From Pseudomonas sp. A34-9 (GTDB lineage: Bacteria; Pseudomonadota; Gammaproteobacteria; Pseudomonadales; Pseudomonadaceae): DNA of 64,000 nt. Both the position numbers and the translations under genes were made by a program. Of the stretch, positions 4,751 through 23,674 are shown in pieces (position 1 is the first letter of the stretch; each line of letters starts with the position of its first letter). The notes beneath the pieces were generated by a model. It saw only the letters and a program-made list of their open reading frames with translations, was not told the origin of the DNA and ran no database searches. The DNA is taken from the NCBI RefSeq assembly GCF_029543085.1, contig NZ_CP119967.1:4614501-4678500 (forward strand). Direction: 5' to 3'.

Positions 4751-4771
4751 GCGATCAACGTCCTTCGCGAG

Positions 4772-4792
4772 TGGAGCTCCCTGGGAGCTCCA
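4772..4792 (+). terminator. Hairpin between gtrII-like gene and aminotransferase gene
   Basis: Perfect 10-bp arms (TGGAGCTCCC / GGGAGCTCCA) lie 22 bases after the gtrII-like stop codon. No T run follows, so it is more likely a transcript-stabilising or attenuating hairpin than a strong terminator. The remaining ~160 bp to the next gene hold nothing else recognisable. Confidence 0.4.
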
Positions 4793-4952
4793 TTCTGTGC
4801 AACAGATATGGATCTCCATAGGTTGAACAACAGGCACTTTGAATCATTGCACACCACCTACGAACGGCGTGGATTGGCCCGACATGCGCGGCACATCTGT
4901 AGTAACATTTCGCCCATCATCAAGTGCTCCGCCATATATTTCTGGATAAATC

Positions 4953-6062: not shown

Positions 6063-6063
6063 C

Positions 6064-6999
6064 GTGCTTTCGCTCGTCATTCCGGTCTATCGCAACGAAG
6101 AATCACTCCCTTCACTGTTGAAGGCTGTCGACAACTTGAATGTCGAGCTTCGCGGGGCACTGGAAGTGGTGTTTGTTGTTGATGGAAGCCCGGATCGCTC
6201 GTATGAAATTCTTCGGGAAAGCCTGCCACTGCAAAATTTTGCGTCGCAGTTGATTCTATTGTCGAAGAACTTCGGCTCCTTCATGGCGATCAGAACAGGC
6301 CTGCAGCACGGTAAGGGCACGACATTCGCCGTCATGGCCGCCGACCTGCAGGAACCTCCGAGTCTGGTTCTGACCATGAATCGAGTCCTGAATACTGAAC
6401 CAGTCGATGTTGTCGTCGGCGTGCGGGAAAGCCGTGAGGACCCTTTCCTGTCAAAGCTCGCTTCGAAAACGTTCTGGGGACTCTATAAACGCTACGTGGT
6501 TCCGGAAATGCCGGCCGGTGGCGTTGACATGTTTGGTTGCAATCTGGAGTTTCGCGACAATTTGCTGAAACTTGAAGAGCGGCATAGCTCATTGATCGCC
6601 CAGATTTTCTGGCTAGGCTTCCGTCGTCAGGTCGTTCGTTATTCCCGAGTGGCCCGAGAGCACGGAAAGTCCGCGTGGACGCTGCGCAAGAAAGTCAATT
6701 ACCTCATGGATAGCGTTTTCTCTTTTACCGACCTGCCGATTCGATTATTGATCCGGATCGGCGCAGTAGGGTCGGCGCTTTCTGCACTCTATGGCGTCAG
6801 TGTCATTCTGGCTAGGTTAGGTGGCCTGATTGACGTGCCTGGCTACGCCATGACGCTGTTTACCATTACGTTGTTGGGCAGCCTCAATCTGCTGGGCCTG
6901 GGCGTCATCGGTTCTTACGCTTGGCGCACGTATGAAAATACTAAAGGGCGCCCGCTGGCTATTCCTATGAAAGTTACTGAGTTTGGAGCCATTAAATGA
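6064..6999 (+). CDS. GtrB/WxcL-like undecaprenyl-phosphate glycosyltransferase
   Basis: GT2 glycosyltransferase with two C-terminal transmembrane helices, about 311 aa. The GT-A fold starts at once ([15 protein letters not shown]) with VVDGSPDRS and AADLQEP as donor/metal motifs; the helices lie at ~235-300. This is the GtrB/DPM1 architecture: it charges undecaprenyl phosphate with a sugar on the cytoplasmic side. The start chosen is GTG at 6064, one base after the preceding stop and behind an AGAGG ribosome site; an upstream in-frame ATG (6025) would lie inside the preceding gene. The last four bases (ATGA) overlap the start of the next gene. Genomic context suggests an aminodeoxy sugar rather than glucose as donor. 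Confidence 0.85.
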
Positions 7000-7946
7000 G
7001 TGATCCACGGGATTTTTTCGTTCATGACCGTGCGATTTGTGAATCGTCTACCATTGGCGCCGGCTCACGAGTCTGGGCTTTTGCCCACGTCCTGCCGAAC
7101 GCCCTGATCGGTGCCGAGTGCAATATCTGCGACAACGTTTTTGTCGAGAACGACGTCATCATCGGTGACCGTGTGACGCTGAAATGCGGCGTGCAAGTCT
7201 GGGACGGCATCACCATTGAGGACGATGTCTTCGTCGGGCCCAATGTCACATTTACCAACGACAAGTTCCCACGCAGCAAGATTTATCCGGAAGCATTCGC
7301 CCGAACCATTATTCGTAAAGGTGCCTCCTTGGGCGCCAACTCGACGATTCTGCCCGGCATTACCATTGGCACTTCGGCGATGGTTGGTGCAGGCGCAGTG
7401 GTCACCAAATCTGTTCCGCCCAATGCCATCGTGGTCGGCAACCCGGCCAAAATCATCGGTTATGTCGATGCCAAGCCTACCGATGGGGCACTGGTAGAAA
7501 ACCCGGTGAAAGTCGGAAAATCGGATATCTACCCTTGTGGCGTTACTTTGCACCGCATGATGGAAGCCGTCGACATGCGCGGAAGTCTGAGCGTTGGCGA
7601 ATGCGGCAAGGATGTGCCGTTCGAAGTGAAGCGTTACTTCCTGGTGACCAACGTTCCGACGGCAGAAACCCGTGGCGAGCATGCTCACCGGGAATGTCAC
7701 CAGTTTCTGGTAGCGGTCAAAGGCACAGTGCATGTCGTTGCCGACAATGGAAAGCACCGCCAAGAATTCGTTCTGGACAACCATACTCTGGGCCTGTTCT
7801 TGCCAGCGATGACCTGGGGAATTCAGTATAAGTATTCGGCAGACGCCGTCTTGCTGGTATTCGCCTCGGAACACTACATGGCCGACGACTACATCCGTGA
7901 CTATGATCAATTCCTGATCGAGAAAAAACAGCAGGCAGTTTCGTAG
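6996..7946 (+). CDS. WxcM-like fusion: hexapeptide acetyltransferase + FdtA-type 3,4-ketoisomerase
   Basis: Two-domain protein, 316 aa. Residues ~1-160 form a left-handed beta-helix acyltransferase with isoleucine/valine-rich hexapeptides ([20 protein letters not shown], then [20 protein letters not shown]). Residues ~180-316 are a cupin of the FdtA/QdtA/WxcM type with [13 protein letters not shown] and [10 protein letters not shown]. The order acetyltransferase then isomerase is that of Xanthomonas WxcM. Known family members isomerise dTDP-4-keto-6-deoxyglucose to the 3-keto sugar (cupin), and N-acetylate the 3-amino sugar after the aminotransferase has acted. Whether the product has galacto (Fuc3NAc) or gluco (Qui3NAc) configuration cannot be read from the sequence. 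The start overlaps the previous stop by four bases (ATGA). Confidence 0.87.
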
Positions 7947-7948
7947 GA

Positions 7949-8341
7949 ATGAATCTGAAAAAACTGCTGGAGATCAAGTTTGTCCGGTTCCTCCTGACCG
8001 GCGGGCTCAACACCGGACTGACTTACGTTCTCTATCTCGTTCTATTGAGTTTTCTACCCTACATCTGGAGCTACTCAATCAGTTATGTCTGCGGGATCTT
8101 TCTGGCGTTCATGCTCAGTCGTTTCTTCGTATTCAAAGAGCATCAGGGGCTGAAATCCGCGCTTTTGTTCCCGTTCGTGTACGTTGCGCAGTACGCTTTG
8201 GGCGTCCTGATTGTCTGGCTGTGGGTCAAGAAGCTGTCCCTTCCCGAGTATCTGGCCCCACTGGCAGCCATCGCACTAACGCTGCCGATAACTTATGCGT
8301 TAAGCAAACTTGTGTTTGTGAAAAGCAACCCGGCCCAATGA
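7949..8341 (+). CDS. GtrA-like flippase
   Basis: Small 130-aa membrane protein with four predicted helices and the GtrA-family pattern: FVRFLLTGGLNTGLTYVLYL at the first helix, a second helix with Tyr-Val-Cys-Gly, and a C-terminal helix ending in KLVFVK. GtrA proteins are thought to flip undecaprenyl-phosphate-linked monosaccharides to the periplasm for a Gtr transferase. Start ATG lies two bases after the preceding stop. It is the last gene of the plus-strand cassette and is followed by a strong terminator. Confidence 0.88.
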   Translation: MNLKKLLEIKFVRFLLTGGLNTGLTYVLYLVLLSFLPYIWSYSISYVCGIFLAFMLSRFFVFKEHQGLKSALLFPFVYVAQYALGVLIVWLWVKKLSLPEYLAPLAAIALTLPITYALSKLVFVKSNPAQ

Positions 8342-8354
8342 AAGCGTCCTTGAC

Positions 8355-8408
8355 GATCAACAGGCATAAAAAAACCCGGCAATCCGGGTTTTTTTATACC
8401 TGTTGATC
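8355..8408. terminator. Bidirectional terminator between gtrA-like and acyltransferase genes
   Basis: Long inverted repeat: 25-bp arms (8355-8379 and 8384-8408) differing at one position, with a four-base CAAT loop. The core is A7-CCCGG...CCGGG-T7, so it has a T run on either strand and can stop transcription from both converging genes. The right arm reaches into the stop codon of the acyltransferase gene. Confidence 0.92.
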
Positions 8409-9522
8409 AGGCTGCTCGTTCAAGCACCACCGGTGCCGAGAACTTCTTTTTAAACTGCATCGCCGGCTTCTCGATGTATCGCCAGGAGAACCACGCCAGC
8501 CCCATGGAGATCACGCTGGTGGCAATAGCCAACCACCAGCCGTTGATCGACTTGTGGGAGATCGACACCAGCGCTTGCTGGATAGGGAAGGCAAAGAGAT
8601 AGGTGCCGTAAGACAGATCGCCAAGCTTGCGCATGCCATCAACGAAGACTGGACGACGATAAGCCAGATACATCAGCAAGTACGGCAATGCAATGAACAG
8701 TGCCAGGTTGGTGTAACCGAATCGTGAGCCGATCAACAGGATGACCAGACACATTGCCGCGATACCGCCCTTGAATGGCACGATATCCTTGTACTTCCAG
8801 AGGAAGGTACCGACCAGGAACATCAAGCCGAAGCGCAGAACAGGTAGTACCTCCGTCGTTCCGAAAAGTGTGATCGGCGCGATGGGGCCATGGAAAAACA
8901 ACCAGACAAAGAACGCCGAAATCAACGCCATTACCGGTACAACCAGCGAGAAAGTTCGACGCCCGACGAAGAAGATCGCAGCCAGCGCCACGTAGCAAAA
9001 CGCTTCGATCGGGATTGTCCACAGCGAACCATTCACCGTTTGCGGATAGGTCACATCCGAGAAGACACCAGGCAATACGAAGACGGTCTGATACGGAATC
9101 GAATTGGTCAGATAACGATAGGTGCCAGAGCTCTGGAAATACTCATCAAGCGGCAGTGCTGTGAAAATCGGTCCCAATATCAAGGCGGAAACGAACGAAG
9201 TGACCGCCAGTGCCGGAATAATGCGCAAAGCGCGCGCCTGCCAGTATTCCGAGAACGTACGGCGCTCCAGAGAACCGGCAATCAGAAAACCACTGATCGC
9301 AAAAAAAGCACTGACTGCCAGGCTTCCAGGCTCATAGCCCATAAACAGGGAATACCACGTTGCAGAGGATTTCCCCGTGAGCGCAAAACTGTGGGTAATC
9401 AAGACGATCAGGGCTGCGCACAATCTGAGCAAGTCAAAGTTGTTAGCACGCAGCTTTACCATGTCGCCAAGTGTTGTTGCTGGCTTTTTAAAATTGGTCA
9501 TTACGCGAACTCGTTTTGTCAC
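8407..9522 (-). CDS. Acyltransferase-3 family membrane protein (OafA/YrhL type)
   Basis: Polytopic 371-aa protein with the hallmarks of the acyltransferase 3 family. The opening NNFDLLRLCAALIVLITHSF has the conserved His; a second signature SAFFAISGFLIAGSLERR has the Arg. About ten membrane helices follow. These proteins O-acetylate (or otherwise acylate) lipopolysaccharide, Nod factors and similar glycans at the membrane. Placement in the O-antigen locus suggests O-acetylation of the O-chain. The reading frame opens with GTG at 9522; an internal ATG (9501) is an alternative start and neither has a strong ribosome site. Confidence 0.85.
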   Translation of the reverse strand: MTKRVRVMTNFKKPATTLGDMVKLRANNFDLLRLCAALIVLITHSFALTGKSSATWYSLFMGYEPGSLAVSAFFAISGFLIAGSLERRTFSEYWQARALRIIPALAVTSFVSALILGPIFTALPLDEYFQSSGTYRYLTNSIPYQTVFVLPGVFSDVTYPQTVNGSLWTIPIEAFCYVALAAIFFVGRRTFSLVVPVMALISAFFVWLFFHGPIAPITLFGTTEVLPVLRFGLMFLVGTFLWKYKDIVPFKGGIAAMCLVILLIGSRFGYTNLALFIALPYLLMYLAYRRPVFVDGMRKLGDLSYGTYLFAFPIQQALVSISHKSINGWWLAIATSVISMGLAWFSWRYIEKPAMQFKKKFSAPVVLERAA

Positions 9523-9599: not shown

Positions 9600-10616
9600 T
9601 CAAGCCTGCTCCGCCCTGCCCGACTGGTACTTGAAGGCAAGAAAAACTAAAGGGGCATACGCAAGGATGAGTCCCGTCGCCCCGTCCAATTGGAATCGGG
9701 CGACACATACTGCAATCGGCAACAACCACAGCAGATTGATCAAACCCACTGCCATTGTGACAGGCCAATGTTTGCCATAACGACGTGACGCAAACTGATA
9801 GGCATGACTGCGGTGAGCCTCATAGACCTTTTCGCCACGCAGCAAGCGGCGCAGCAGTGTAAACGTCGCATCGACGATGAAGACCCCCAGCAGGATCAAC
9901 CACCCCCAAAACAGCTGAAACGAGAGCCAGCTGGCCTCAAGCGCGAGAATGCCCAGAATCAGACCGAGAAACCCGCTGCCGGCATCGCCCATAAAGATCC
10001 GTGCCGCCGGGAAGTTCCAGACCAGAAAGCCTGCCACAGCGACCGCCAGCAATAGCGGCGCACCAATCAACGGCGCGCCGTTATCCAACACTGACAACAC
10101 GCATACCCCAAGGCACACCGTGACCGCCTCGACACCGGCGATCCCGTCGATACCGTCCATGAAGTTGTAGAGGTTGAGCATCCAGACGAGAAAAAAAGCC
10201 GCCAATGCCGTCCCCGGCCATCCCAGATCGATCACCTGACCGAACGCATGCAGCGGCGGGAGACCTCCCAGCCAGTAAAGAGCCCATGCAGCGGCGGCGA
10301 AGTGCCCCAGTAGTCGCCAGCGTGCGGCGATGTGGCCATGATCATCCATAAAACCAATGATCGCGACCATTGCCCCCGCTCCCAACGCCGACAAGAAGAG
10401 CCCCGACGGGATTATCCCCGCCATGAACAACAGACAAAGTGCAGCCAGAAAGGTGACGACGATCGCCACTCCTCCGCCCCTTGGCGTTGGAATGGTGTGA
10501 GAGCTCCGATCGTTAGGCACATCGATAAGGCTTTTGGACAAGGCATAACGGCGCAAGAGCGCGGTTAAAGTGAAGGCACTGGCAAAGACCACTGGCACAA
10601 GCCAAACGCTACTCAT
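9600..10616 (-). CDS. wbpL: WbpL-type undecaprenyl-phosphate HexNAc-1-phosphate transferase
   Basis: Member of the WecA/MraY/WbpL glycosyltransferase family 4, 338 aa with about ten helices. Key motifs are visible: IGFMDDHGH (Mg-binding Asp pair), LYNFMDGIDGIAG, FMGDAGSGFLG and EAHRSHAYQ (family His motif in the last cytoplasmic loop). It starts O-antigen assembly by putting a HexNAc-1-phosphate (in P. aeruginosa FucNAc, QuiNAc or GlcNAc) on undecaprenyl phosphate. The donor here would come from WbpM plus the reductase at 18.7 kb. It lies downstream of the 1440-residue protein gene after a hairpin. Confidence 0.92.
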   Translation of the reverse strand: MSSVWLVPVVFASAFTLTALLRRYALSKSLIDVPNDRSSHTIPTPRGGGVAIVVTFLAALCLLFMAGIIPSGLFLSALGAGAMVAIIGFMDDHGHIAARWRLLGHFAAAAWALYWLGGLPPLHAFGQVIDLGWPGTALAAFFLVWMLNLYNFMDGIDGIAGVEAVTVCLGVCVLSVLDNGAPLIGAPLLLAVAVAGFLVWNFPAARIFMGDAGSGFLGLILGILALEASWLSFQLFWGWLILLGVFIVDATFTLLRRLLRGEKVYEAHRSHAYQFASRRYGKHWPVTMAVGLINLLWLLPIAVCVARFQLDGATGLILAYAPLVFLAFKYQSGRAEQA

Positions 10617-10719: not shown

Positions 10720-13700
10720 TTAGTTTTTGTGCAGGTCGACTATTTCGTGAAGTGGACGCTTGGTCAACTTTCTCTTGATTTTCTGACGTACACCATACGG
10801 AACCGAACGACTGAGTCGCTGCATGCCAGGCTTGCGGTACAACGTCCACAGAGCGAGCAGCACAATTTCCCGGGTAGTCAACGGTACTTCGTACTCGGCC
10901 GCAGTAATGCCCGTGGCAGGGAGTTCGAGGAAAACGGGCTGTTGCTGACGCGGAACATCGTTATTCACCAGTTGCAAATAATCGACTTCATAGAAATCTG
11001 GATTCAACAGACTTTGCGCATGCGAAGGTGCCTGGATCAAGTCCCCCGCCACCGATGACTGCACAAATGTGCTCATTGCTTCCAGAAGCTCTACAGGCTC
11101 GATGCCAAATGGGTACACGAGGGTATGTTCACGGCTGGCCAGGCGCTCGGGGAACGCACCGATATCCGGCGCGATGATCGGCAGCCCTGACGCCAGCGCA
11201 TAGCTGAGTGTGTAGCTGTAAGTTTCCGGCCATTGCGCAGGAAACAGGATCAAGTCGAGATCATGCTCCGCGATCAACCGCGCGAGCTCCGCTGCGTCGT
11301 ATTGCCCGCTGGTGAAAATCCCGTTCAATTCCCGGTAAGCGAAGCCAAGCAGCTTGAAGTCGAAGGGGGCGTTTGCGGCCTTCGCTTTCGCAGCCAGTTG
11401 CTCGAGATAATCCGCGCCCTTTTCCTTGCCCAGCGCACCCAACACGCCCACGGTATAACGCGGTTTTGGAATGATCGGTGCCACCGAAGAGATTGCCGGT
11501 CGCTTGTCCTCGACATGCAACGCTACGATCGGACGCTGCAAAGCATAGTACTGCTGGTAAAGCGCCAACGTGTACTCAGATGGGAACACGACTGTTTTCG
11601 CGCTTTCGAGGAACCCTCTCAATTGTTCGCGCCATTCGACAGCCGAGACACCCTCGGGCAGAGGGAACGCAGGATTGAGTAAATCATCGGAATACTGGCC
11701 CGGATAAACGCCCGCCTCGTTGGTCAATGTCGGGTTGCCGCCAAGCCAATAGAAGTCGTGAACCGTCAATGCGTATTCAGTACCCAGCTGCGCCGGAAGA
11801 TCGAACAGTGCCGGATTCAATCCAAGAGAGTGATGGAAATGGACGAATCCGACACCGCAGCCTTTGAGCAGGGCAACCAGCTTCGGAAGCTCTTCCGGAA
11901 GATGGAAGACCAGCTCGTCTGCGCCGGGGAATGTGCCCATGTACAGAGAGACGGCGCCCGCACCTTTACGAGGTTTGAGGATGAGGTTGTAGGTATTTGC
12001 CTGAAGCGCTTCGCTCAGCTCTTCGACATGCTGTTTGACTCCGCCCCCGGCCTCATGGGAAACCTGCAGGACCTTGGGACGATTGAGTGTCGAAAGCAAC
12101 TGTACGAGACGGTTGACACGCACCAGCTTGACCGGATCCTCGGCAATGAACGTCTGAATATCCAGATGATAGTCCGGATGCAGTTCGACAATCGCTTTGA
12201 AGGCGTTTTCGATCAATGCCTGCTTGGTCGAAGAAAAACTGACGCCGCCTTCATGGAATGCGTAAAGGTTCGGTGTAATGATGTTGAACCAGCCGGCCTT
12301 GAGCGCGCGCTGGCACAAATCGTTTTCTTCGCCGTAACCACGACCGAATTTTTCCTCATTCAACAAGCCCACGACGTCCAGGCAATCGCGGCGCACGTAC
12401 ATGCAGAACCCGACACCGGTAGGTGCTTTCACATTTGGCAGTCGTGCCCCGGCGAACACTTTGTCGATCTGATGGACATCCAGTCCGAAGGCCTGTTCGT
12501 TTTCGTACAGGAAGGCCGGAAAACTGCAAATGGTCGCGTTATTCGAGAACGGGGTAACCGTACCGATATTCGGCGCAATGTAGGCTTCTGCGGTCAGCCG
12601 TTCCAGCCAGTTTTGCGGGACGATCACATCGCTGTTCAGGAACACGATGTCGGCTTCTCCGGCCTGGCGCATCCCACGATTAACAGTTTTGACGAATCCC
12701 AGGTTGTTCGGATTCTCCAAAACAGTCAGCACGTCCGGCCATTGTGCTTCGAGCTCAAGAAGCATGTCCTGCATCCCGGCATCCGGACTACAGTCATTGA
12801 TCGCGATGATCTTTGCACCCGACATCGAGAGAATGCCCGGCATGGCAGCTTCGATGCAGCGCCTGGTCATCTCGATGCCTTTATAGACCGGCAAGATCAC
12901 CGTCACGGAGCGGATACGGGCAATTGGCGCTTCGACGATGTAACTCTTGCCTGCGGGAACCGGAGCCTTGACCTCCTGGTTACGCAGGTAGACGGTGGCC
13001 GCGCGTTTACAGCTTTCGACATTATTGCGCAAAGCCTTTTTGCCGTTGCGCAGTGAACGAACGACAAATCGAATCGGCTTGGTGATGAACCAGGAGTTCG
13101 AATGAATCACATCATTGTAGGCTGCCTGACTCTCGGTCAAACGAACAGACAAGCGGTAGCGTTCCGACTGCAGATTCTCTAGCTCGGATCGAAGTTCGGA
13201 GTGAAGCCGCTGATTATCAGCCTGAACTCTTTCAACTTCCCGCAGGGAATCAGCCTGAACTCTTTCAACTTCCCGCAGGGAATCAGCCTGAACTCTTTCA
13301 ACTTCCCGCCCAGCGGCTTCCAACGCTTGCGCTTGTGTCGCCAAGGCGGACTGGGTTTTGTTAAAAGCCATCAACAAGTTGTCAACGACAACCTGTCGAT
13401 CCTCTTCCCAAGAGTGAAATTCACTTGGCTCGCGGCCACTGATGGCGCTCTGCACAGCCGCCTCTAATGACAGAAATTGACGAACATCTTCTTCGCCGAT
13501 CCCATAGCCAGCTGCCGCTGACGCTGCAAACACGAATTCTTTGTACGTTGCCGTGGCGAAGTCAGCGCTCGGGCTGAAACGTGTCACCGAACCGAGCAAT
13601 TGACGCAGTGCCCTGAACAACAGGAATTCGATCCGCAAACCGACGGTCAACGACCACTCTTTATCTATCAGGTGGGGGGCGCCTTGCTGGTCGATCAGAA

Positions 13701-15042
13701 TATTCTGTGGTACGGCATCGAAAAGTTGTCCCGGCAATAAATCATCAGCGCCCGACTGGCCGCTGGAGATATTTTTCAATATGGCCACATAGCCTTTCAG
13801 GAACTCGCCGACCTGAGCATAAGTCCAGCCTTGCGCATTGACGATTTCGATCAACTTCGTCGAGAGAACATGCCCTTTGATGTATGGCTCGGACGCTGTC
13901 AGCTTGAAGTCGACGATGGCTTCTGCGGCAGGCTCTGCAGCAATATTGGTCAACTTCTCGTAGTGAACGCGAATTGAGTTATCGGCGCCTTTTTTGAACG
14001 ACGAACTCTTGCAGAATTCCGCCCGACGATCACTGCTGAAATGAACGGCCAGGGTTCCGTCGTCGAGGGTTTTGCGTGCCACCGGCGAAGCACCGATGAG
14101 GAAGGAATTGGACATGTCCATGCCCAAACCATTCTTGCAGATCTGCGGCCATGCCAGTTCAAGCGAGAACGTACACAGCTCAGGCAGTTGCGGATCGCGC
14201 TGGGCGCTTTGCCAAGCAAAAGCCCCAGCATCGAAATCAGGGTCGACAAACCCTTCTTCCGTGACAATCGAAACCGGCAGTTTGTAATCTGGAAATGGAG
14301 CAAAAAATTCGTTGGACGCAAAGCCGGCACCAGACAGCAGCGAGGCTAGCGCCTGTTTGCCGTAAGTTTGTGGCGTAGTGCTGTTATAGCGTCCCTCGAC
14401 ACCAAACATCGGCGTCACAACATGGTCTTCCGGTGCGCCTGCGAAATATTTGAGACCCAGCTGGTTCTCGATGGCAATGATCAACAAGCCGTCGGGCTTC
14501 AATAGCGAGCGAACTTTCTTGAGCATGTTCGCGCCCGGATTCTCACCCGAGACAAACAGATTGGCGTACTCAAAAACACCAATCAGCGTGATGACATCGA
14601 ATTTCTTGTCAACCTGGAAGTTTTCGAATGTTTCGGCCAATACCGACACGTTCGGCAAGTCTCTGGTACGAGACCGGGCAATGCTTGCACGGCGCGCACT
14701 GCCTTCCAGCGCAAGCACGTTACCGCCCTGCTCACCCAGATAGCGGGTAATCGCGCCACAGCCTGCGCCGATTTCGAGGACGTCACCTTTAAGATCGGCA
14801 TCAAACACCCTTAGCAAATTTGCCCGGGTGCTGGACAGGTAATACAGCGATGGCCAATCGGTGCACCAGCCACGCAGCTCATCGGAAAAAACACTTACAT
14901 CACGCGCCTTCTCAATCAAGTACTTGATGCGTAGTTCGGTGGTATCGCCGTCACTGTAGTTGATACTCGCGTAATCCGGCCGCGACCAGATCTTGAGTTC
15001 TTCGTTAAGTTGATAGCCCGCTTGCGTCAATAAAGTATTCAA
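10720..15042 (-). CDS. Multidomain O-antigen protein: methyltransferase, kinase-like patch, coiled coil, GT2 and GT4
   Basis: 1440 aa. Residues ~85-245 form a class I SAM methyltransferase (VLEIGAGCGAITRYLG). Residues ~330-520 include FDAVPQNILIDQQG then LIDKEW, resembling the catalytic and metal-binding loops of a small-molecule kinase, but with no HxD. Residues ~550-640 are coiled coil with three near-identical 11-mers (REVERVQADSL, 579-611). Residues ~711-930 are a GT2 domain (TVILPVYKG, NDCSPD, GEEND). Residues ~990-1330 are a GT-B domain with an EX7E-like segment (PETYSYTLSYALASG). Methyltransferase-kinase-coil is the order of E. coli WbdD, which caps the O-chain and sets its length; the equivalence is my inference. 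The TTG start overlaps the wzt stop (TTGA). Confidence 0.85.
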   Translation of the reverse strand: MNTLLTQAGYQLNEELKIWSRPDYASINYSDGDTTELRIKYLIEKARDVSVFSDELRGWCTDWPSLYYLSSTRANLLRVFDADLKGDVLEIGAGCGAITRYLGEQGGNVLALEGSARRASIARSRTRDLPNVSVLAETFENFQVDKKFDVITLIGVFEYANLFVSGENPGANMLKKVRSLLKPDGLLIIAIENQLGLKYFAGAPEDHVVTPMFGVEGRYNSTTPQTYGKQALASLLSGAGFASNEFFAPFPDYKLPVSIVTEEGFVDPDFDAGAFAWQSAQRDPQLPELCTFSLELAWPQICKNGLGMDMSNSFLIGASPVARKTLDDGTLAVHFSSDRRAEFCKSSSFKKGADNSIRVHYEKLTNIAAEPAAEAIVDFKLTASEPYIKGHVLSTKLIEIVNAQGWTYAQVGEFLKGYVAILKNISSGQSGADDLLPGQLFDAVPQNILIDQQGAPHLIDKEWSLTVGLRIEFLLFRALRQLLGSVTRFSPSADFATATYKEFVFAASAAAGYGIGEEDVRQFLSLEAAVQSAISGREPSEFHSWEEDRQVVVDNLLMAFNKTQSALATQAQALEAAGREVERVQADSLREVERVQADSLREVERVQADNQRLHSELRSELENLQSERYRLSVRLTESQAAYNDVIHSNSWFITKPIRFVVRSLRNGKKALRNNVESCKRAATVYLRNQEVKAPVPAGKSYIVEAPIARIRSVTVILPVYKGIEMTRRCIEAAMPGILSMSGAKIIAINDCSPDAGMQDMLLELEAQWPDVLTVLENPNNLGFVKTVNRGMRQAGEADIVFLNSDVIVPQNWLERLTAEAYIAPNIGTVTPFSNNATICSFPAFLYENEQAFGLDVHQIDKVFAGARLPNVKAPTGVGFCMYVRRDCLDVVGLLNEEKFGRGYGEENDLCQRALKAGWFNIITPNLYAFHEGGVSFSSTKQALIENAFKAIVELHPDYHLDIQTFIAEDPVKLVRVNRLVQLLSTLNRPKVLQVSHEAGGGVKQHVEELSEALQANTYNLILKPRKGAGAVSLYMGTFPGADELVFHLPEELPKLVALLKGCGVGFVHFHHSLGLNPALFDLPAQLGTEYALTVHDFYWLGGNPTLTNEAGVYPGQYSDDLLNPAFPLPEGVSAVEWREQLRGFLESAKTVVFPSEYTLALYQQYYALQRPIVALHVEDKRPAISSVAPIIPKPRYTVGVLGALGKEKGADYLEQLAAKAKAANAPFDFKLLGFAYRELNGIFTSGQYDAAELARLIAEHDLDLILFPAQWPETYSYTLSYALASGLPIIAPDIGAFPERLASREHTLVYPFGIEPVELLEAMSTFVQSSVAGDLIQAPSHAQSLLNPDFYEVDYLQLVNNDVPRQQQPVFLELPATGITAAEYEVPLTTREIVLLALWTLYRKPGMQRLSRSVPYGVRQKIKRKLTKRPLHEIVDLHKN
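13217..13309. repeat. In-frame 33-bp tandem repeat, about 2.8 copies
   Basis: Near-identical 33-bp units begin at about 13217, 13250 and 13283, the last one shortened. The unit encodes REVERVQADSL, an 11-residue (hendecad) coiled-coil period. Because 33 is a multiple of three, gain or loss of a unit would lengthen or shorten the coil without a frameshift. Confidence 0.95.
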
Positions 15043-16346
15043 TTTGTAACCTTTTTGGCACGAATGCTCGAATCTAGATTTACCAGCCCAAAAAACTTGT
15101 CTGTCGGCCGCACCTGAAGGTGCACGGAATCGTAACGACGATCCCTTGGCGTCACCTCTTCACCGTCTTTGGTGGAAACGCCAAGGGAAATGAAGTAATC
15201 ACCCGGAGCCAATTCACAGGCAATCGACAACTCGACCTCGACGATTTCACCCTTGCGACCAAAGGCGCGGAAATCCGGAGAATCAAGGGTTTCACTGTTC
15301 ACGCCGTAAACGGTTACCCCTTCCTTGGTTTTGATGGTCATGCCGAGGATAGGGCAGATCAGATCGGTATCAAACCTGACGAATACAGCCAGCTTAAGTT
15401 TGGAACCGGTATCAACGGCTACGGGATATTCCTGACCATCGGCACTCAGATGAAAGTCGATGATGGTCGCTGCCCGATCCCCCCAACGATACTCATTGGG
15501 ATTGTAGTTGGGGTGCGTATCAAATACGTCCATTCCGCCTTCAGGCGTGTGGTAGGTTTCCAGCACGTCGACGGCAGGCTCAAGCTCGGTCACTACTGAA
15601 TTCCGGGTTTTGCCGAACAGCAGATCCAGATAGCGATTGACAACCTGGCGTGGCTCACCCTGCTCTAACTGCACACCGTCATTCAACAGAAATGCCTTGT
15701 CGCAATGAGTCACGATCTGCTCACTCGAATGCGTTACCAGGAGAATACTGGTGCCATTCTCCTTCAGCTTCTTCAAGCGATCAAAACAGCGTGCCTGGAA
15801 CTTGGCATCGCCAACGGCCAATGCTTCATCAACAATAAGAATGTCCGGTTCGACTTGAGCCTGAACGGAAAACGCCAGACGCACGAGCATCCCGCTGGAG
15901 TAGGTTTTCACCGGCTGATTGATAAACTCGCCAATGTCCGCAAACTCGATGATCGCATCGTACTTTTCATCGATTTCCTCTTTGCTCAAACCGAGGATGG
16001 TTGCGTTCAAATAGACGTTTTCACGCCCGGTGAACTCAGGATTGAATCCCGAGCCCAACTCCAGCAACGCAGCGATCCGACCGTGGGTTTCCACAGTACC
16101 GCCAGTAGGATTCAGGGTCCCACACAAAATCTGCAACAGCGTGGACTTGCCACTGCCGTTCTTGCCGACAATCCCGACGGTCTCGCCCTTGCGGATCTCG
16201 AACGACACATCGTGCAGCGCCCAGAACTCCCGGCAGTATTTTTTCTTGCCGCGGCTGAGCATCTGCAGCAGGCGGTCACGTGGCTTGTCGTAAATCTCAT
16301 AGCATTTGCTGAGATTCTGAACTTTGATAGCAATCTCAGATGACAT
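15039..16346 (-). CDS. wzt: O-antigen ABC exporter ATPase with carbohydrate-binding C-terminus
   Basis: 435-aa ATP-binding subunit of a Wzm/Wzt O-polysaccharide exporter. Walker A is GIVGKNGSGKST, the signature YSSGMLVRL, Walker B ILIVDEALAVGD. After the ~250-residue ATPase comes a ~170-residue beta-rich domain (VDTGSKLKLAVFVRF ... GDYFISLGVST), the Wzt C-terminal domain. In E. coli O8/O9a this domain recognises the cap that WbdD puts on the finished chain. Start chosen is MSSEIAIKV, overlapping the end of wzm by 11 bases; an upstream Met would overlap it further. It ends in a 4-base overlap with the downstream multidomain gene, consistent with coupled expression of cap-making and cap-reading proteins. 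Confidence 0.95.
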   Translation of the reverse strand: MSSEIAIKVQNLSKCYEIYDKPRDRLLQMLSRGKKKYCREFWALHDVSFEIRKGETVGIVGKNGSGKSTLLQILCGTLNPTGGTVETHGRIAALLELGSGFNPEFTGRENVYLNATILGLSKEEIDEKYDAIIEFADIGEFINQPVKTYSSGMLVRLAFSVQAQVEPDILIVDEALAVGDAKFQARCFDRLKKLKENGTSILLVTHSSEQIVTHCDKAFLLNDGVQLEQGEPRQVVNRYLDLLFGKTRNSVVTELEPAVDVLETYHTPEGGMDVFDTHPNYNPNEYRWGDRAATIIDFHLSADGQEYPVAVDTGSKLKLAVFVRFDTDLICPILGMTIKTKEGVTVYGVNSETLDSPDFRAFGRKGEIVEVELSIACELAPGDYFISLGVSTKDGEEVTPRDRRYDSVHLQVRPTDKFFGLVNLDSSIRAKKVTN

Positions 16347-17154
16347 CAGCAAATCCTTTTCGAGTTTTCTGGAACCAGGCAAAGCCGAGCCAGGCGACCA
16401 CTATTGAGCCTGCGAGATAAATGCCAAGGACGGTGAAATCAGGCATACGCCCCCAGAACAGCACTTCACGCGCATATTCAATGGTGGGCGTGAGCGGGTT
16501 CAACATCAGCAGGTGCTGATACTTTTCGGGTAATGCGCTCGCCGGATAGAAAATGGGTGAGAGGAACATCAGTACCGTGGTCAGAATCCCGATGAATTGC
16601 GCAACATCGCGCAAGTAAACACCGAGTGATGCCAGCGCCCAGGTCAATCCCATGATCAACAGCACCAGTGGCAATATGATCAGCGGAAACAACAAGACCG
16701 TCAGATGAGGTGTACCAAACAGAAAGGTATAGGCAAGCAGCCACACGATCAGACTGATCACCATATGAAACAGCGCGGAGCCGACGGTCACCCATGGCAG
16801 GATCTCCAGCGGAAATACTACCTTCTTGACGTAATTCGCATTGGAAAGAATCAGCGTCGGGCTGCGATTGAAACACTCGGCGAACAGGTTGAATACGATC
16901 AGTCCCGCGAACAGGATGAGTGCAAATTCTGTCTTGGAATCGCTACCCCCGCTCCAGCGAGCCTTGAACACGACGCTGAAGACAAACGTGTACACGACCA
17001 GCATGAACACCGGATTGAAGAACGACCAGAGAATCCCCATGAAAGACCCGCGATAGCGCCCCACAACCTCGCGCTGCACCAGAGCTCTGATCATGCTGCG
17101 ATTGCGCCACAAACTGCCGAGTAATTCCCTCGGTGAAATCGAAAAATTACGCAT
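16336..17154 (-). CDS. wzm: O-antigen ABC exporter permease
   Basis: 272-aa ABC-2 type permease with six hydrophobic helices. The N-terminus has the usual amphipathic interface sequence (LVQREVVGRYRGSFMGILWS) before the first helix; the C-terminus carries GRMPDFTVLGIYL before the last helix. It forms the channel moving undecaprenyl-linked O-polysaccharide across the inner membrane, powered by the adjacent Wzt. Start chosen at MRNFSISP, three codons into the open frame. Confidence 0.94.
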   Translation of the reverse strand: MRNFSISPRELLGSLWRNRSMIRALVQREVVGRYRGSFMGILWSFFNPVFMLVVYTFVFSVVFKARWSGGSDSKTEFALILFAGLIVFNLFAECFNRSPTLILSNANYVKKVVFPLEILPWVTVGSALFHMVISLIVWLLAYTFLFGTPHLTVLLFPLIILPLVLLIMGLTWALASLGVYLRDVAQFIGILTTVLMFLSPIFYPASALPEKYQHLLMLNPLTPTIEYAREVLFWGRMPDFTVLGIYLAGSIVVAWLGFAWFQKTRKGFADVI

Positions 17155-17268
17155 TAAGCACACACCTAAAAAAACTCAGGGAGATGAATCTCATCAAAAT
17201 TCTCTCGTTCAAACACTGCTACCGTGCCATCAGGAAACCTGCAAAAGTCCTTTCAGGCGCGAACATCT

Positions 17269-18285
17269 TCATAGTCTATTAATGGCCGCTGCCAGTATCA
17301 GCCCCAGGCTACCCCACATAGTCTGTCGATAGACGCCGGAACGTCTCAGCCAGAAAAATCGAGTAAATACTGAGGATCTTCGGGCTTTCTGAAACAGATC
17401 CAGCGTCAATTGACTGTCTTTGCTCAGTCGTGTTCGAACCGATTCCAGGGCAGCAATATTTCTCTGATTCCACCCTTTGAAACGCCCACTGAACATCATC
17501 CGCAACCTCGCCAACCGCGCGCGCGCGCCCATGTCGGAACCGATAAGATTGGTGTCGTGCTGCCTGTAAAGGAGGGTCGGGGTATGGTCATAGACAACTT
17601 GTCCACCTGTACCTGTCACCAACAGGTAGGCCCACCAGTCATGGGAGACTATATCCAGATGCGCCCCGGCTGCCTGAAAAAGCGCTTGTGCCGAACGGTT
17701 GAAGACCATGGTGTTGCCCCCGGCAATGCTCTGCACCAACGCATTGGCAAAACAGGGCGGTAGTGGAAACATCGGCGAACGGCCGGTAACCGTTCCCGTA
17801 TCGTCAATCAATTCGGTGCGCGCGCAATACAATGCAGGAATGTCCATTGGCAGGTGCTGCAGCGACTTGAGAGCAACCTCAAGTTTATGCTCCTGCCAGA
17901 TATCATCCTGATCGGCCCATGCATAGAATTCGGATTGACCAGATGCAACGCAGGCCACCGACAGAAAATTCGCCGCAAAGCCTCGCTGAGGCCCCTGCCG
18001 GACAGTCAGCTTGCCATCGCCCCACGCGTCGGCGTATTGGCGCAAGATATCCAGAGTGGCATCGGTTGAGCCATCGTCCGATACCAGAACATCCCAGTTT
18101 TGAAAACTCTGACGAGCGATAGAGTCCAGTTGTTGAGACAGAAAACGCTCACCGTTGTAAGTACACATAAGGATCGTGACGCGCGAGACGTGCGAATCTT
18201 GATCCTGCCTATCGACTGCTTCACGGGAAGGTATAGCACCTGTCTGAACAGCTTGTGGAAGAGGGTCTACCACCGAGCACTCCAT
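17269..18285 (-). CDS. GT2 glycosyltransferase (rhamnosyltransferase-like)
   Basis: 338 aa. After a ~30-residue polar N-terminus the GT-A fold begins (VTILMCTYNGERFLSQQLDS), with SDDGSTDATLDI as the nucleotide-binding region, ADQDDIW as the DxD motif, and HDWWAYLL toward the acceptor side. This combination is typical of RgpB/WbbL-like rhamnosyl- and related transferases. With rmlBDA upstream, dTDP-L-rhamnose is a plausible donor, but specificity cannot be read from sequence. It probably builds part of the O-unit and lies upstream of wzm with a ~115-bp gap. Confidence 0.85.
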   Translation of the reverse strand: MECSVVDPLPQAVQTGAIPSREAVDRQDQDSHVSRVTILMCTYNGERFLSQQLDSIARQSFQNWDVLVSDDGSTDATLDILRQYADAWGDGKLTVRQGPQRGFAANFLSVACVASGQSEFYAWADQDDIWQEHKLEVALKSLQHLPMDIPALYCARTELIDDTGTVTGRSPMFPLPPCFANALVQSIAGGNTMVFNRSAQALFQAAGAHLDIVSHDWWAYLLVTGTGGQVVYDHTPTLLYRQHDTNLIGSDMGARARLARLRMMFSGRFKGWNQRNIAALESVRTRLSKDSQLTLDLFQKARRSSVFTRFFWLRRSGVYRQTMWGSLGLILAAAINRL

Positions 18286-18683: not shown

Positions 18684-19637
18684 TCAACGCTTGAGGTAAT
18701 GCGTCGCGGTGCGCTTCAAGGCCTTGTCGACACTTATGGGAGGAGACCACTGCAACAACGAGCGGGTCTTATCGATGTCGACCTGCAATGAACCGCAAAG
18801 CCTTTGCGCCATCTCCCCCCTCCCCATCAAACGCGCAGCACCGCGCAGCAGCAATTGCGGAATAGGCAATAATAACGCGGGCCTACCCAAGGCCGCCGCC
18901 ATACGCCGGAGCAACCCGGAGGTGGACAAGTCTTCGCCATCGCTTACCAGAAAGGTCTGATTCGCCGCAGCGGGATGCGCAATGCAGGTAACAATTAGAT
19001 CAACGAGATTACCCAACGCCACCAGACTGCGCTGGTTTCTTAAGGCCCCCAGAGGTAGCGGAAAGCCTTTGTTCAGCCAGTTCATCATGCTTAGGAAGTT
19101 GGCTTTGACACCCGGGCCATACACCAGCGGCGGACGAATGATGACAATCTCCATGCCGGTCTGACGACCGATTTCACGCAGGCACTCTTCCGCTTCACAC
19201 TTGGAGACACCATATGGATCAGCCGGCGCAGGCTGATCGTCAGCTTTGAAAGGCATACCAGGCAATGTCGCTTCACCATTAACCTTGATCGAACTGATGA
19301 ATACGAAACGCCTGACACCTGACTCAGCCGCCTTTCGAGCCAAACGCGCCGTGCCCTGAACGTTAATCTCACGGAATTTCGCCAAGGGGTCGGCAGCGGT
19401 ATCACTCATCACGTGGACGCGAGCTGCACAGTGAACCACCACATCGACTTGTACGAATGCCGGCAGCTCAACATTTTCGCTCAGATCAAAAGGCACCACA
19501 TCACACAAGCCGCTTAACCGGGTTTTACCTCGCACCCCAGCGACGGGCGCATACGCCCTGTCCAGCAGCATGCGGAAAACCACTGCCTCACCGACAAAAC
19601 CGGTGGCACCTGTAACCAATACACGGCACTTTGTCAT
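18684..19637 (-). CDS. WbpV/WbpK-like nucleotide-sugar reductase or epimerase
   Basis: 317-aa extended SDR protein. The N-terminal Rossmann motif is VLVTGATGFVGEAVV; the catalytic pair is in DPYGVSKCEAEE (YxxxK), with VFISSIKVNGE upstream. It resembles WbpV/WbpK, which reduce the WbpM product UDP-4-keto-6-deoxy-GlcNAc to UDP-QuiNAc or UDP-FucNAc, the sugar WbpL then uses. A C4 epimerase is the alternative. The chosen start (MTKCRVLVTG) overlaps the preceding glycosyltransferase stop by four bases (ATGA). Confidence 0.8.
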   Translation of the reverse strand: MTKCRVLVTGATGFVGEAVVFRMLLDRAYAPVAGVRGKTRLSGLCDVVPFDLSENVELPAFVQVDVVVHCAARVHVMSDTAADPLAKFREINVQGTARLARKAAESGVRRFVFISSIKVNGEATLPGMPFKADDQPAPADPYGVSKCEAEECLREIGRQTGMEIVIIRPPLVYGPGVKANFLSMMNWLNKGFPLPLGALRNQRSLVALGNLVDLIVTCIAHPAAANQTFLVSDGEDLSTSGLLRRMAAALGRPALLLPIPQLLLRGAARLMGRGEMAQRLCGSLQVDIDKTRSLLQWSPPISVDKALKRTATHYLKR

Positions 19638-20557
19638 TCGGCTTTTTTCCCAACGATCGCAGCAGCCCAACATATACAGAAGAAAAACACTTTATCCCTC
19701 ATTCGCCGCCGGCAATGCCGAGCGCTCAGGGACAATCCCAACAACTGCCTGCGACCTAACGGCAGCCAGCGCCGCACAAACGCATTGTCCGCGACCCCCA
19801 CCAACCTCGCGATCAATCGCACCTGGGAGAACCACCAACCATCGTGAATCGTCTTGTAACGCTCGATCAATGAACCGAGACCAGTATTCGCCCCCACTTG
19901 GTTTTGCGCGTGCTGACGATATTGCATGGATGACCATGGATCGATGAACCAGCGAAAACCATGACTCCGAGCGTAGGCGTAGCAATACCAGTCATGCAGA
20001 CGGACCTGCTGCAGCGCCTCCCAATCCGCGAGCATCGACGTCTTCAACTGTGTCATCAGTCGATGCGTCATGACGTAGGTACAACCCGGACCCGCAGCCT
20101 CGAACAAATAATCCCAGGCAACTTGCGGTTGTCCTTTGTCTAGCAGACAAGCCCGCCCATCCGCCCAGAAAGCCGTGACATTGCTGGAGTAGGCGTCAAC
20201 CTGGCGCAATCTGATCGCCCGGGTCGCGCGATCAAGCTTATCGAGATTCCAGATATCATCCTGGTCAGCGAAGGCGACGAAATCATACTCATCCACAGGC
20301 ACATCGCGAATCAGCCTGAAGAAATTACGCGATGCACCACCGAAGCTGCCCGCTTCGGGCAGTACGATCACTTGAACATTGCGCGAGGCATAATCCGCGC
20401 ACCATGCTTCGGTACCGTCAGAAGAAGGGTCGATACTGATATAGACGGTCACATCGACAGCTGACTGGCCAAGGATCGAGTCCAACTGTTCCTCGATCCA
20501 GCGCATGCCATTGAAGGCCGCCAGCAACACTGCAACCTTAGGATGTTCTACTGGCAT
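19634..20557 (-). CDS. GT2 glycosyltransferase
   Basis: 307 aa, full-length GT-A transferase: VAVLLAAFNGMRWIEEQLDS, then SIDPSSDGTEAW, the DxD motif ADQDDIW and HDWYCYAYARS. A C-terminal hydrophobic stretch (VFFFCICWAAAIVG) may anchor it to the membrane. It shares the DQDD-IW and H-D-W layout with the transferase at 17.3 kb, so the two may be distant paralogues acting on successive rhamnose or deoxysugar linkages. It lies 52 bases after rmlA, in the position where rmlC is often found. Confidence 0.85.
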   Translation of the reverse strand: MPVEHPKVAVLLAAFNGMRWIEEQLDSILGQSAVDVTVYISIDPSSDGTEAWCADYASRNVQVIVLPEAGSFGGASRNFFRLIRDVPVDEYDFVAFADQDDIWNLDKLDRATRAIRLRQVDAYSSNVTAFWADGRACLLDKGQPQVAWDYLFEAAGPGCTYVMTHRLMTQLKTSMLADWEALQQVRLHDWYCYAYARSHGFRWFIDPWSSMQYRQHAQNQVGANTGLGSLIERYKTIHDGWWFSQVRLIARLVGVADNAFVRRWLPLGRRQLLGLSLSARHCRRRMRDKVFFFCICWAAAIVGKKAE

Positions 20558-20609: not shown

Positions 20610-21500
20610 TCAGCGTGAAGGCGTGTCCAGCAGTTTCTGCAAGTATTGACCGTAGCCCGTCTTTTTAAGTGCATCAGCTTGAGCGGCCAGTTGCTCGGCA
20701 GTGATCCAGCCATTGTGATATGCGATCTCTTCCAGGCAGGCGACTTTCAGCCCCTGACGCTGTTCGATCGTGTGAACGAAATGGCTCGCTTCGAGCAGAG
20801 AATCATGAGTGCCGGTATCCAGCCACGCAAAACCACGACCAAGCATTTCTACATTCAGAGACTTCTGCTCTAGGTAGGCACGATTGACGTCAGTGATCTC
20901 TAGCTCCCCGCGCTCTGAAGGCTTGATGTTCTTGGCAATCTGCACGACCTGATTGTCATAGAAATACAAACCCGTCACGGCGTAGCTGGATTTCGGCTTC
21001 AGCGGTTTCTCTTCGATACTAAGAGCGCGGCCGGAAGCATCGAACTCGACGACACCGAATCGCTCCGGATCGGATACGTGGTAACCGAATACCGTTGCAC
21101 CCTGCTGTTGGTTGGTGGCCGAACGCAGATTGTCGGAGAAGTGCTGACCGTAAAATATGTTATCGCCCAATATCAGGCAGCAAGGATCGTTGCCTATGAA
21201 CTCTTCGCCAATGATGAAGGCCTGCGCCAAGCCATCGGGACTTGGCTGTTCGGCATAAGTCAATTTGATGCCATACAGACTTCCATCCCCCAGAAGCTTG
21301 CGGAAACAAGGCAAGTCTTCAGGGGTAGAGATAATCAGAATCTCGCGCATACCGGCAAGCATCAACACCGACAGCGGATAAAAAATCATCGGCTTGTCGT
21401 AGATCGGCAGCATCTGTTTGGACACGCCAAGCGTCAGCGGATGCAGACGCGTTCCCGAACCACCGGCGAGGATGATGCCTTTACGATTTGTCGTGGTCAT
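20610..21500 (-). CDS. rmlA: Glucose-1-phosphate thymidylyltransferase
   Basis: 296 aa. Makes dTDP-glucose from glucose 1-phosphate and dTTP, the first step to dTDP-rhamnose. Signature [16 protein letters not shown] (phosphate-binding loop) near the N-terminus, then [17 protein letters not shown] and LGDNIFYG with the metal-binding Asp. Full family length. Overlaps rmlD by four bases. Its product should also supply the 3-amino-sugar cassette at 5-8 kb. Confidence 0.97.
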
Positions 21501-22378
21501 TTGTTCAAAACTTCCCTAAGCATTCGGGTTACACCACTTTGCCAATCCGGCAAGTGCAGAGAAAAATTGTCACGGAGTTTCTGCGTATTCAAACGTGAAT
21601 TCAGAGGACGCCGTGCAGGTGTTGGGTAAGCGCTGGTGTTGATCGGATCTACCGTTTTAACCGCAAGCTGCTCACCATTGCTTTGAGCAAATTCTATGAC
21701 ATGGCGGGCATAGCCGTGCCAGGAAACCTCACCGCCCGCTGCCAGGTGATAAAGACCCGCCAGCTCAGGACGCTGTATCACTTGCTGAATAGCCAAAACC
21801 GTCACGTCGGCAATCAGATCAGCACCTGTCGGAGCCCCGATCTGGTCGGCAATAACGTTAAGCGTTTCGCGATCCTTGGCTAAACGCAGCATGGTTTTGG
21901 CAAAATTGTTGCCACGCGCGCCGTAAACCCAACTGGTGCGGAAGATCAGGTACTTGCAACCTGACGCGATAATCGCTTGCTCACCTGCCAGCTTACTAGC
22001 GCCATAGTGATTAACCGGGGCGACAGGATCAGCTTCTTGCCACGGCTGCGTTCCCTGTCCGCTGAACACATAGTCGGTCGAGTAATGAACAAGCCAGCTA
22101 CCCAAGGACGCAGCCTCTTCAGCCATGACCTGACTCGCCCGAGCGTTCACACGGTCTGACAGTTCGGTTTCCGACTCAGCCTTATCGACAGCGGTATAGG
22201 CTGCGGCATTGACGATGACGTCAGGTCCAACCTTGCAAATCATCGTGCGCAGGGCGTCCAGATCAGATAGGTCACCACCGCTATTGCGATCGAGGGCAAT
22301 TAATTCTCCAAGTGGCGCAAGGGCGCGTTGTAGCTCCCATCCCACTTGGCCATTCATACCCAGCAATAAAACTCTCAT
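21497..22378 (-). CDS. rmlD: dTDP-4-dehydrorhamnose reductase
   Basis: 293 aa. NADPH-dependent last step of dTDP-L-rhamnose synthesis. Dinucleotide motif [17 protein letters not shown]; catalytic [10 protein letters not shown] with STDYVFSG upstream; FRTSWVYG in the substrate region. It needs the RmlC product as substrate, but no rmlC lies in this window. It overlaps both neighbours by four bases. Confidence 0.96.
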
Positions 22379-23451
22379 GCTTTAGACGATCGATCTGCGT
22401 AATTCTGGTCAATCCACTGTTGATAGCTGCCGCTCTTCACGTGCTCTACCCACGCAGTATTACCCAAATACCACTCAACGGTCTTGCGGATACCGGTCTC
22501 AAAGGTTTCTTCCGGAGTCCAACCCAACTCTCGCTGAATCTTGCTCGCATCGATTGCATAACGCACGTCATGACCAGGGCGATCCTGAACATAGGTAATC
22601 AGGCTGGCATGAGGACGATGGGCAGAATCAGGGCGTAACTCATCGAGCAACTCACACAGGGTATGCACCACTTCGATGTTTTGCTTCTCGTTGTGACCAC
22701 CGATGTTGTAGGTCTCACCGATAACACCTTCGGTGACCACCTTGTACAGTGCCCGAGCGTGATCTTCGACATACAGCCAGTCACGAACCTGGTTGCCTTT
22801 GCCATAAACCGGCAGAGGCTTGCCTTCCAGCGCATTGAGAATGATCAACGGGATCAGTTTCTCAGGGAAATGGCATGGGCCGTAGTTGTTCGAGCAGTTG
22901 GTCACCAAAGTAGGCAGGCCGTAAGTGCGGGCCCAGGCACGAACCAAGTGGTCGGAGCTGGCCTTGCTGGCCGAGTATGGCGAGCTTGGCTGGTATGGAG
23001 TGGTTTCAGTGAAGAGGTCTTCCGGCCCTTCCAGATCGCCGTAGACTTCATCGGTCGAAATGTGATGAAAGCGGAAGTTGGCTTTACGCGAATCGTCCAG
23101 AGCGGACCAATATTGGCGCGCAGACTCAAGCAACGTGTAAGTGCCAATGATGTTGGTCTGAATAAACTCGGATGGCCCGGAGATCGAGCGATCAACATGG
23201 GACTCCGCCGCCAGGTGCATGATCGCATCAGGTTGATGCTCACGCAAAACGCGATCGATCTGGTCACGATCACAGATATCAACGCGCTCAAACGTATAAC
23301 GCGGATCCTGACTCACTTCAGCCAGGGACTCCAGGTTACCGGCGTAAGTCAGCTTATCGACATTGACGACAGAATCAGTGGTGTTGGAGATGATGTGACG
23401 GATGACTGCCGAGCCGATAAACCCGGCGCCGCCGGTAACTAGAATTTTCAC
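22375..23451 (-). CDS. rmlB: dTDP-glucose 4,6-dehydratase
   Basis: 358 aa with GTG start at 23451 ([16 protein letters not shown]); the longer open frame upstream is not family-like. Extended SDR with [16 protein letters not shown] and the catalytic [10 protein letters not shown], full length. Makes dTDP-4-keto-6-deoxyglucose, the branch point for rhamnose (RmlC, RmlD) and for the 3-amino sugar made by the WxcM/WxcK-like proteins. First gene of the minus-strand O-antigen operon; the ~220 bp upstream should contain its promoter, but I could not place the boxes with confidence. Confidence 0.96.
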
Positions 23452-23674
23452 GCGAAACCATACCCTTGAGCTGCGGACAGCGCCACCAACGAGCACTGTC
23501 TAATCCATGAACGCAGAAGCCACCAACATCAGGCTTCCGTCAAAGTCAGTCTGAATCGACGCGCAATAAAGCATTGTCGAACAAGGGTTGCATTTTACAG
23601 CTTAACGAACGATTTACTAATGGATATAAACAGGGAGAGACGCAATTTCGACAGACGCCCTGCACCTGCCGCCT

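Follow-up and report, generated by a model that had tools for sequence, protein, structure and literature searches.

A single gene of Pseudomonas sp. A34-9 very probably encodes both a chain terminator of the Klebsiella pneumoniae O7 ORF6 type and a polymerase, and the cap that it places would be a methyl phosphate. The gene lies in a stretch of 64,000 nucleotides (assembly GCF_029543085.1, contig NZ_CP119967.1, 4,614,501-4,678,500), called the window here; coordinates count from its start. The model for this reading is ORF6 of K. pneumoniae O7, a proven methyltransferase-kinase that caps with methyl phosphate and whose chain also includes a coiled coil and a pair of polymerase domains (PMC11231755). 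Along the 1440 residues of the window protein, a methyltransferase is followed by a kinase-like domain, a long helix and two glycosyltransferase (GT) domains of types GT2 and GT4; the gene overlaps wzt (Table 1). The first-pass annotation of the sequence had proposed this domain order, and Pfam and AlphaFold2 bear it out.

A probable terminator joined to a polymerase

At the threshold used for Pfam domains (E≤0.001), the methyltransferase is called at residues 74-242 (Methyltransf_12, E 2.1e-12), and no domain is called between residues 242 and 713. This gap is filled by the AlphaFold2 model of residues 1-700 (mean predicted local distance difference test score, pLDDT, 87.4), in which an alpha/beta domain at the N-terminus is followed by another domain (about 305-545) and an unbroken helix (556-646). 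If straight, its 91 residues would span about 136 Å. Modeled alone (pLDDT 86.4), residues 300-560 give weak fold matches to kinases and phosphotransferases. Behind the helix stands an SxSW motif, of which S648, S650, W651, T654, P656, and R658 are kept in at least 90% of the 76 proteins introduced below; the region 648-686 is a candidate for a membrane-side foot. GT4 enzymes typically have an E-x7-E motif, and the position of its second Glu is Y1281 here, with Tyr in 28 and Phe in one of 29 proteins.

The strongest evidence comes from homology to the proven terminator. A protein of 1414 residues, P0123, named as a K. pneumoniae bifunctional methyltransferase/glycosyltransferase, shares 48% identity with residues 5-548 of the window protein (261 of 548 columns, E 7e-156) and agrees with the ORF6-O7 paper at all 12 residue positions that were taken from it (PMC11231755). 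Seven of these lie in the O7 terminator, and all seven of its SAM-site and catalytic residues Y28, Y66, G91, G93, E112, Y158, and D441 align with identical residues in the window protein, D441 with D442. Conservation was followed in 76 proteins, namely the window protein and 75 of 120 homologues among the matches listed. Invariant in all 76 are Y29, Y67, G92, G94, E113, and Y159 on the methyltransferase side and D442, N447, D460, E462, and W463 on the kinase side.

The coil as a probable ruler

The feature that the first-pass annotation missed is that the rod varies in length. Among the window protein and its 28 nearest relatives among the matches listed (64-97% identical to it), the stretch from kinase to SxSW motif ranges from 53 to 123 residues, with a standard deviation (SD) of 18.2, while the SD of every other segment is at most 1.91 and the length outside the coil stays at 1334-1343 residues. 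The variation is found between close relatives as well. Of 16 pairs whose non-coil parts have 90% identity or more, and which share proteins and so are not independent, 10 differ in the coil by seven residues or more and six by less. The coils of P0016 and P0017 (96% identical) and of P0005 and P0008 (95%) differ by seven residues each, and that of P0006 is 29 and 36 residues apart from those of two proteins 94% identical to it. In the wide family, the coil distance could be measured in 116 of 170 proteins.

At the level of DNA, one such difference consists of whole repeat units. Locus L095, whose protein is 89% identical to that of the window, lacks 66 bp, or two units of the 33-bp repeat (11 residues each), in a single alignment gap, giving 1418 residues instead of 1440; gain or loss by whole units preserves the register of the rod. 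In P0002, which is 97% identical overall, there are three diverged units, so the identical copies in the window look recently homogenized. For a census of tandem arrays, 74 of 81 open reading frames (ORFs; 80 genome loci and the window) were mapped, the seven that could not be mapped were dropped, and the coil end was set by default at 110 residues where the SxSW motif was missing. The coil makes up 30.9 of the 279 kb in these 74 ORFs and holds 24 of the 30 arrays; the other six all fall in the 127 kb that lie outside both the coil and the 121 kb coding for the catalytic N-terminal region, which have none. Among the 24, the period is a multiple of 21 bp (one heptad) in 19, 54 bp in three, 33 bp in one, and 12 bp in one. 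The 54-bp (18-residue) repeats are those of the Pseudomonas loci L018, L019, and L032, and L024 has them just beyond its called coil end; L018 also has an extra insert between kinase and coil. The enrichment is no proof of slippage, since heptad-coding DNA tends to look repetitive.

That the rod is a coiled coil is supported by periodicity across the family, though not in the single sequence. Pooled over 117 of the 170 family proteins (53 without a mapped coil were dropped), the hydrophobic peak at 3.5 residues reaches 8.55, and none of 100 shuffles exceeds 1.49. This is well above the value of 3.0 for a control of 110 residues from the kinase domain of the same proteins, but the control also exceeds every one of its own shuffles, so part of the pooled signal is ordinary helix. 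For the window protein alone, the periodicity is not significant, with 242 of 1000 shuffles reaching the observed value.

The most serious alternative is that the coil is a mere spacer, with a length that drifts neutrally along with the repetitive DNA encoding it and has no control over that of the chain. Variable length is common in coiled-coil linkers, and repeat arrays are expected in DNA that codes for heptads. We regard this alternative as plausible, if somewhat doubtful. Against it, the remainder of the protein is locked in length, and both of the genome's frames with a Wzz domain (754 and 614 aa) lie outside the window. In WbdD, insertions into the coil or truncations of it shift the modal chain length, and the distance from terminator to polymerase is quoted as about 200 Å, according to the excerpted text of one paper (PMC5082667). 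A coiled-coil methyltransferase influences chain length in Escherichia coli O101, according to excerpts of another (PMC13168486). The molecular-ruler model has so far been established in E. coli O9 and K. pneumoniae O12 (PMC11231755).

Taken by itself, the step from rod to ruler is one that we consider reasonably probable. More tentative, though quite conceivable, is the further proposal of a ruler that works as a length dial, evolvable and prone to slippage. Units made up of complete turns of the coiled coil (seven, 11, or 18 residues) would be gained and lost while the catalytic lengths stay fixed, and strains would retune the length of their O-chains, perhaps quickly, with the chemistry of the chain and its cap unchanged. 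A literature search that covered few subscription papers found none linking tandem repeats to O-antigen rulers, which is no proof that there are none.

The kinase and the nature of the cap

The kinase-like patch was described in the first-pass annotation as lacking an HxD motif. This is literally correct, as the motif around the catalytic Asp reads L440-F441-D442, but the suggestion built on it, that capping could be by methyl alone, fares poorly. In that case, the kinase domain would be catalytically dead and a methyl group alone would end the chain, as it does for WsaE and for K. pneumoniae O5 WbdD. Besides the missing His, it could be said in favor of a dead kinase that K345 is not universal across the wide family. 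However, no His precedes the catalytic Asp of P0123 either (F-I-D441), and P0123 fits the O7 enzyme, whose activity is proven. ORF6-O7 first phosphorylates and then methylates O3 of the terminal rhamnose, and its D441A variant is inactive, with phosphorylation stopped (PMC11231755). Since D442 matches this essential residue and is invariant, as are the other four kinase positions, methyl-only capping is very unlikely. Among the 79 of 80 genome loci with an aligned residue, position 442 is Asp and 447 is Asn in every one, and 460 is Asp in 77 and Glu in two. The methyl-phosphate reading preferred here is also consistent with the neighboring transporter. The C-terminal domain of the window's Wzt belongs to the cap-reading family, as had been claimed (PF14524, Wzt_C, E 6.7e-32), and matches the solved structure 2r5o (E 1.9e-26), which we take to be the Wzt C-domain of E. 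coli O9a. This match fits, as phosphate and methyl form the end of the O9a chain according to excerpts of PMC5082667; the window's Wzt would then recognize a capped end.

Likeness to known systems

The window protein had been called a WbdD-like cap-and-ruler module, and in its way of working the likeness holds: it has a terminator, a rod-like helix, a GT fusion, and a coupling to Wzt. In the WbdD of E. coli O9a and K. pneumoniae O3, too, a methyltransferase-kinase cap stands at the distal end of a coiled-coil ruler, and the match of the window's Wzt C-domain to 2r5o is a further likeness, but WbdD recruits the separate polymerase WbdA, whereas the GT domains of the window protein are in the same ORF. 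Kinship to WbdD is not supported by sequence. It is most improbable that the protein comes from the WbdD family and has gained a polymerase: the domain order is identical and Foldseek lists 4uw0, 4ax8, 4azt, and 4azs for the model (ranks 36, 42, 48, and 49; 553-687 columns, E 1.2e-7 to 1.9e-7), and for the kinase alone 4azs (rank 16, E 0.031, query TM score 0.25) and 4ax8 (rank 36, E 0.047), but template modeling (TM) scores normalized by query are just 0.19-0.23 for the former, searches of the PDB with phmmer and with a profile of the 76 sequences find no WbdD chain at E≤1, and two papers call the families distinct (PMC9758233, PMC11231755).

The closest counterpart is the O7 ORF6 protein, with its N-terminal methyltransferase, AmiN/APH-like kinase, coiled coil, and two C-terminal GT modules in a wzm-wzt locus with rml genes (PMC11231755). 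The two differ in that O7 has an immunoglobulin (Ig)-like carbohydrate-binding module between kinase and coil, where the window protein has a gap, and in that the O7 modules are both GT2. The Ig-like module is a feature of O7 itself and is not taken to define the terminator family. The Lcin_0519 family of Legionella also combines kinase and methyltransferase, commonly with a coiled coil, has wzt, wzm, and GT neighbors, and includes members in Pseudomonadales; its function is predicted only (PMC9758233). The window protein probably belongs to it, judging by matches at two Legionella loci (L033 and L040) and not by alignment to Lcin_0519 itself.

WbbB of K. pneumoniae O12, which adds a Kdo cap, has modules of the GT99/102/103 families instead. 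It does hold polymerase, terminator, and ruler on a single chain, so the idea that polymerization, capping, and length control might lie in one protein is sound as to the shared ORF but is not new: WbbB, and O7 ORF6 with all but one GT, are published examples (PMC11231755). WsaE of Geobacillus stearothermophilus likewise joins a methyltransferase to two rhamnosyltransferase domains, in a locus where wzm, wzt, and wsaE overlap, but its cap is 2-O-methyl and the excerpts of the two papers mention neither kinase nor coil (PMC2943079, PMC3898925). The window protein, which has a kinase, is set apart from WsaE by description and not by alignment.

Distribution among relatives

At least 1132 proteins (7992 scored) match residues 1-700 at E≤0.001, and the nearest named full-length relatives belong to Pseudomonas. 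In the best 80 of at least 330 relatives found in genomes, wzt lies on the same strand no more than 130 nt upstream in 58, with wzm also upstream in 53; 22 have no wzt nearby, 16 of these have no wzt match at all, and some contigs are short. Counted from the start of the match, the ORF has at least 900 residues in 54 of the 80 loci and is shorter in 26, some of them ended by contig edges, and in 17 of the 80 it also contains the best match to the window's GT region. With ORF size and GT location differing in this way, one terminator appears to be combined with many polymerases or to stand alone.

Within Pseudomonas, the distribution is patchy. Only 14 of 199 genomes match at E≤1e-60, the window's own included, and two of the 14 in the GT part only. 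In other families of the order, the GT2-GT4 half also stands in open frames of just 743 and 744 aa (L084 in G052 and L086 in G038, with 38 and 34% identity). Either terminator and polymerase may have become fused in the window gene, or the two frames may be products of a split. No paper on the window gene in Pseudomonas was found by title, in a search that left subscription papers mostly uncovered; the Legionella pan-kinome survey reports homologues in P. syringae (PMC9758233).

The locus

The frame of 1440 residues has no internal stop in the host genome. Its TTG start, with AAGG upstream, shares the bases TTGA with the stop of wzt, so the overlap noted earlier is one of 4 nt, and wzt and wzm lie upstream of the fused gene in the operon. 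As rmlA, rmlB, and rmlD are in the locus and the rest of the genome supplies an rmlC-type gene (two PF00908 matches), dTDP-L-rhamnose is probably available to the host.

Table 1. Features of the terminator-polymerase gene and its locus (window coordinates).
Feature	Position	Strand	Basis
WecA/WbpL-type polyprenyl-phosphate sugar-1-phosphate transferase (initiation)	9600..10616	-	PF00953, E 7e-36
Terminator-ruler-polymerase gene, 1440 aa, TTG start	10720..15042	-	ORF reading
GT4-type domain (residues about 990-1330)	11053..12075	-	Glyco_transf_4 1000-1172, E 1.2e-6; Glyco_trans_1_4 1196-1326, E 5.6e-8
GT2 domain (about 713-960), NxD motif N803-S-D805	12163..12906	-	Glycos_transf_2 714-888, E 4.8e-13
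SxSW-x2-T-x-P-x-R motif and two helices after it (648-686)	12985..13101	-	Conservation, model
Putative ruler, continuous helix (556-646)	13105..13377	-	AlphaFold2 model
33-bp tandem repeat, 2.8 copies, 100% match, EVERVQADSLR units inside the helix	13216..13309	-	Repeat search and translation
Kinase domain (about 305-545)	13408..14130	-	K345, D442, N447, D460, E462, W463; model, weak fold matches, invariance, alignment to O7 D441
S-adenosylmethionine (SAM) methyltransferase domain (about 1-260)	14263..15042	-	E90-I-G92-A-G94, E113, Y29, Y67, Y159
wzt, ATP-binding cassette (ABC) transporter ATPase with C-terminal Wzt_C domain (about 15075-15497)	15039..16382	-	Pfam, 2r5o match
wzm, ABC-2 permease	16336..17163	-	Pfam
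GT2, candidate adaptor or third polymerase GT	17269..18285	-	Pfam
GT2, candidate adaptor or third polymerase GT	19634..20557	-	Domain scan
rmlA, rmlD, rmlB (dTDP-L-rhamnose pathway)	20610..23496	-	rmlB read from translation, without Pfam scan

Beyond the initiator gene, a divergent cassette (2606-8341, + strand) codes for a GtrII-type membrane transferase, a DegT aminotransferase, a GtrB-like GT2, an FdtA-fused hexapeptide acetyltransferase, and GtrA. It looks like a set for the synthesis of a side group, of the dTDP-Fuc3NAc type to judge by these genes, and its periplasmic attachment to the exported chain. An acyltransferase-3 gene (8407-9522, - strand) between initiator and cassette is a candidate for O-acetylating the chain. 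The host genome codes for one more Wzt_C domain outside the window (G000:C1:6509338-6509754, L107), which makes it probable that another polysaccharide leaves the strain by an ABC-dependent route.

Proposed mechanism and its meaning

In the mechanism that we propose, the two C-terminal GT domains would work in the cytoplasm, near the membrane, to extend a chain that is linked to undecaprenyl and probably contains rhamnose. Once the chain is long enough to pass the coiled-coil rod, its non-reducing end would meet the distal active sites. The kinase domain would phosphorylate the terminal sugar with ATP as donor, and the methyltransferase would then methylate the terminal phosphate, stopping growth. 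The capped end would be recognized by the C-domain of Wzt and the chain exported by Wzm/Wzt. The length of the rod, altered by tandem repeats in the coil, would set the modal chain length.

Databases often name such proteins just “glycosyltransferase” or “methyltransferase”; the present analysis offers a mechanism for them and sets right the first-pass view of the kinase. Should chain length follow coil length, the natural variants would be a ready allelic series for testing the molecular-ruler model, and the length of the O-antigen might be predictable from sequence.

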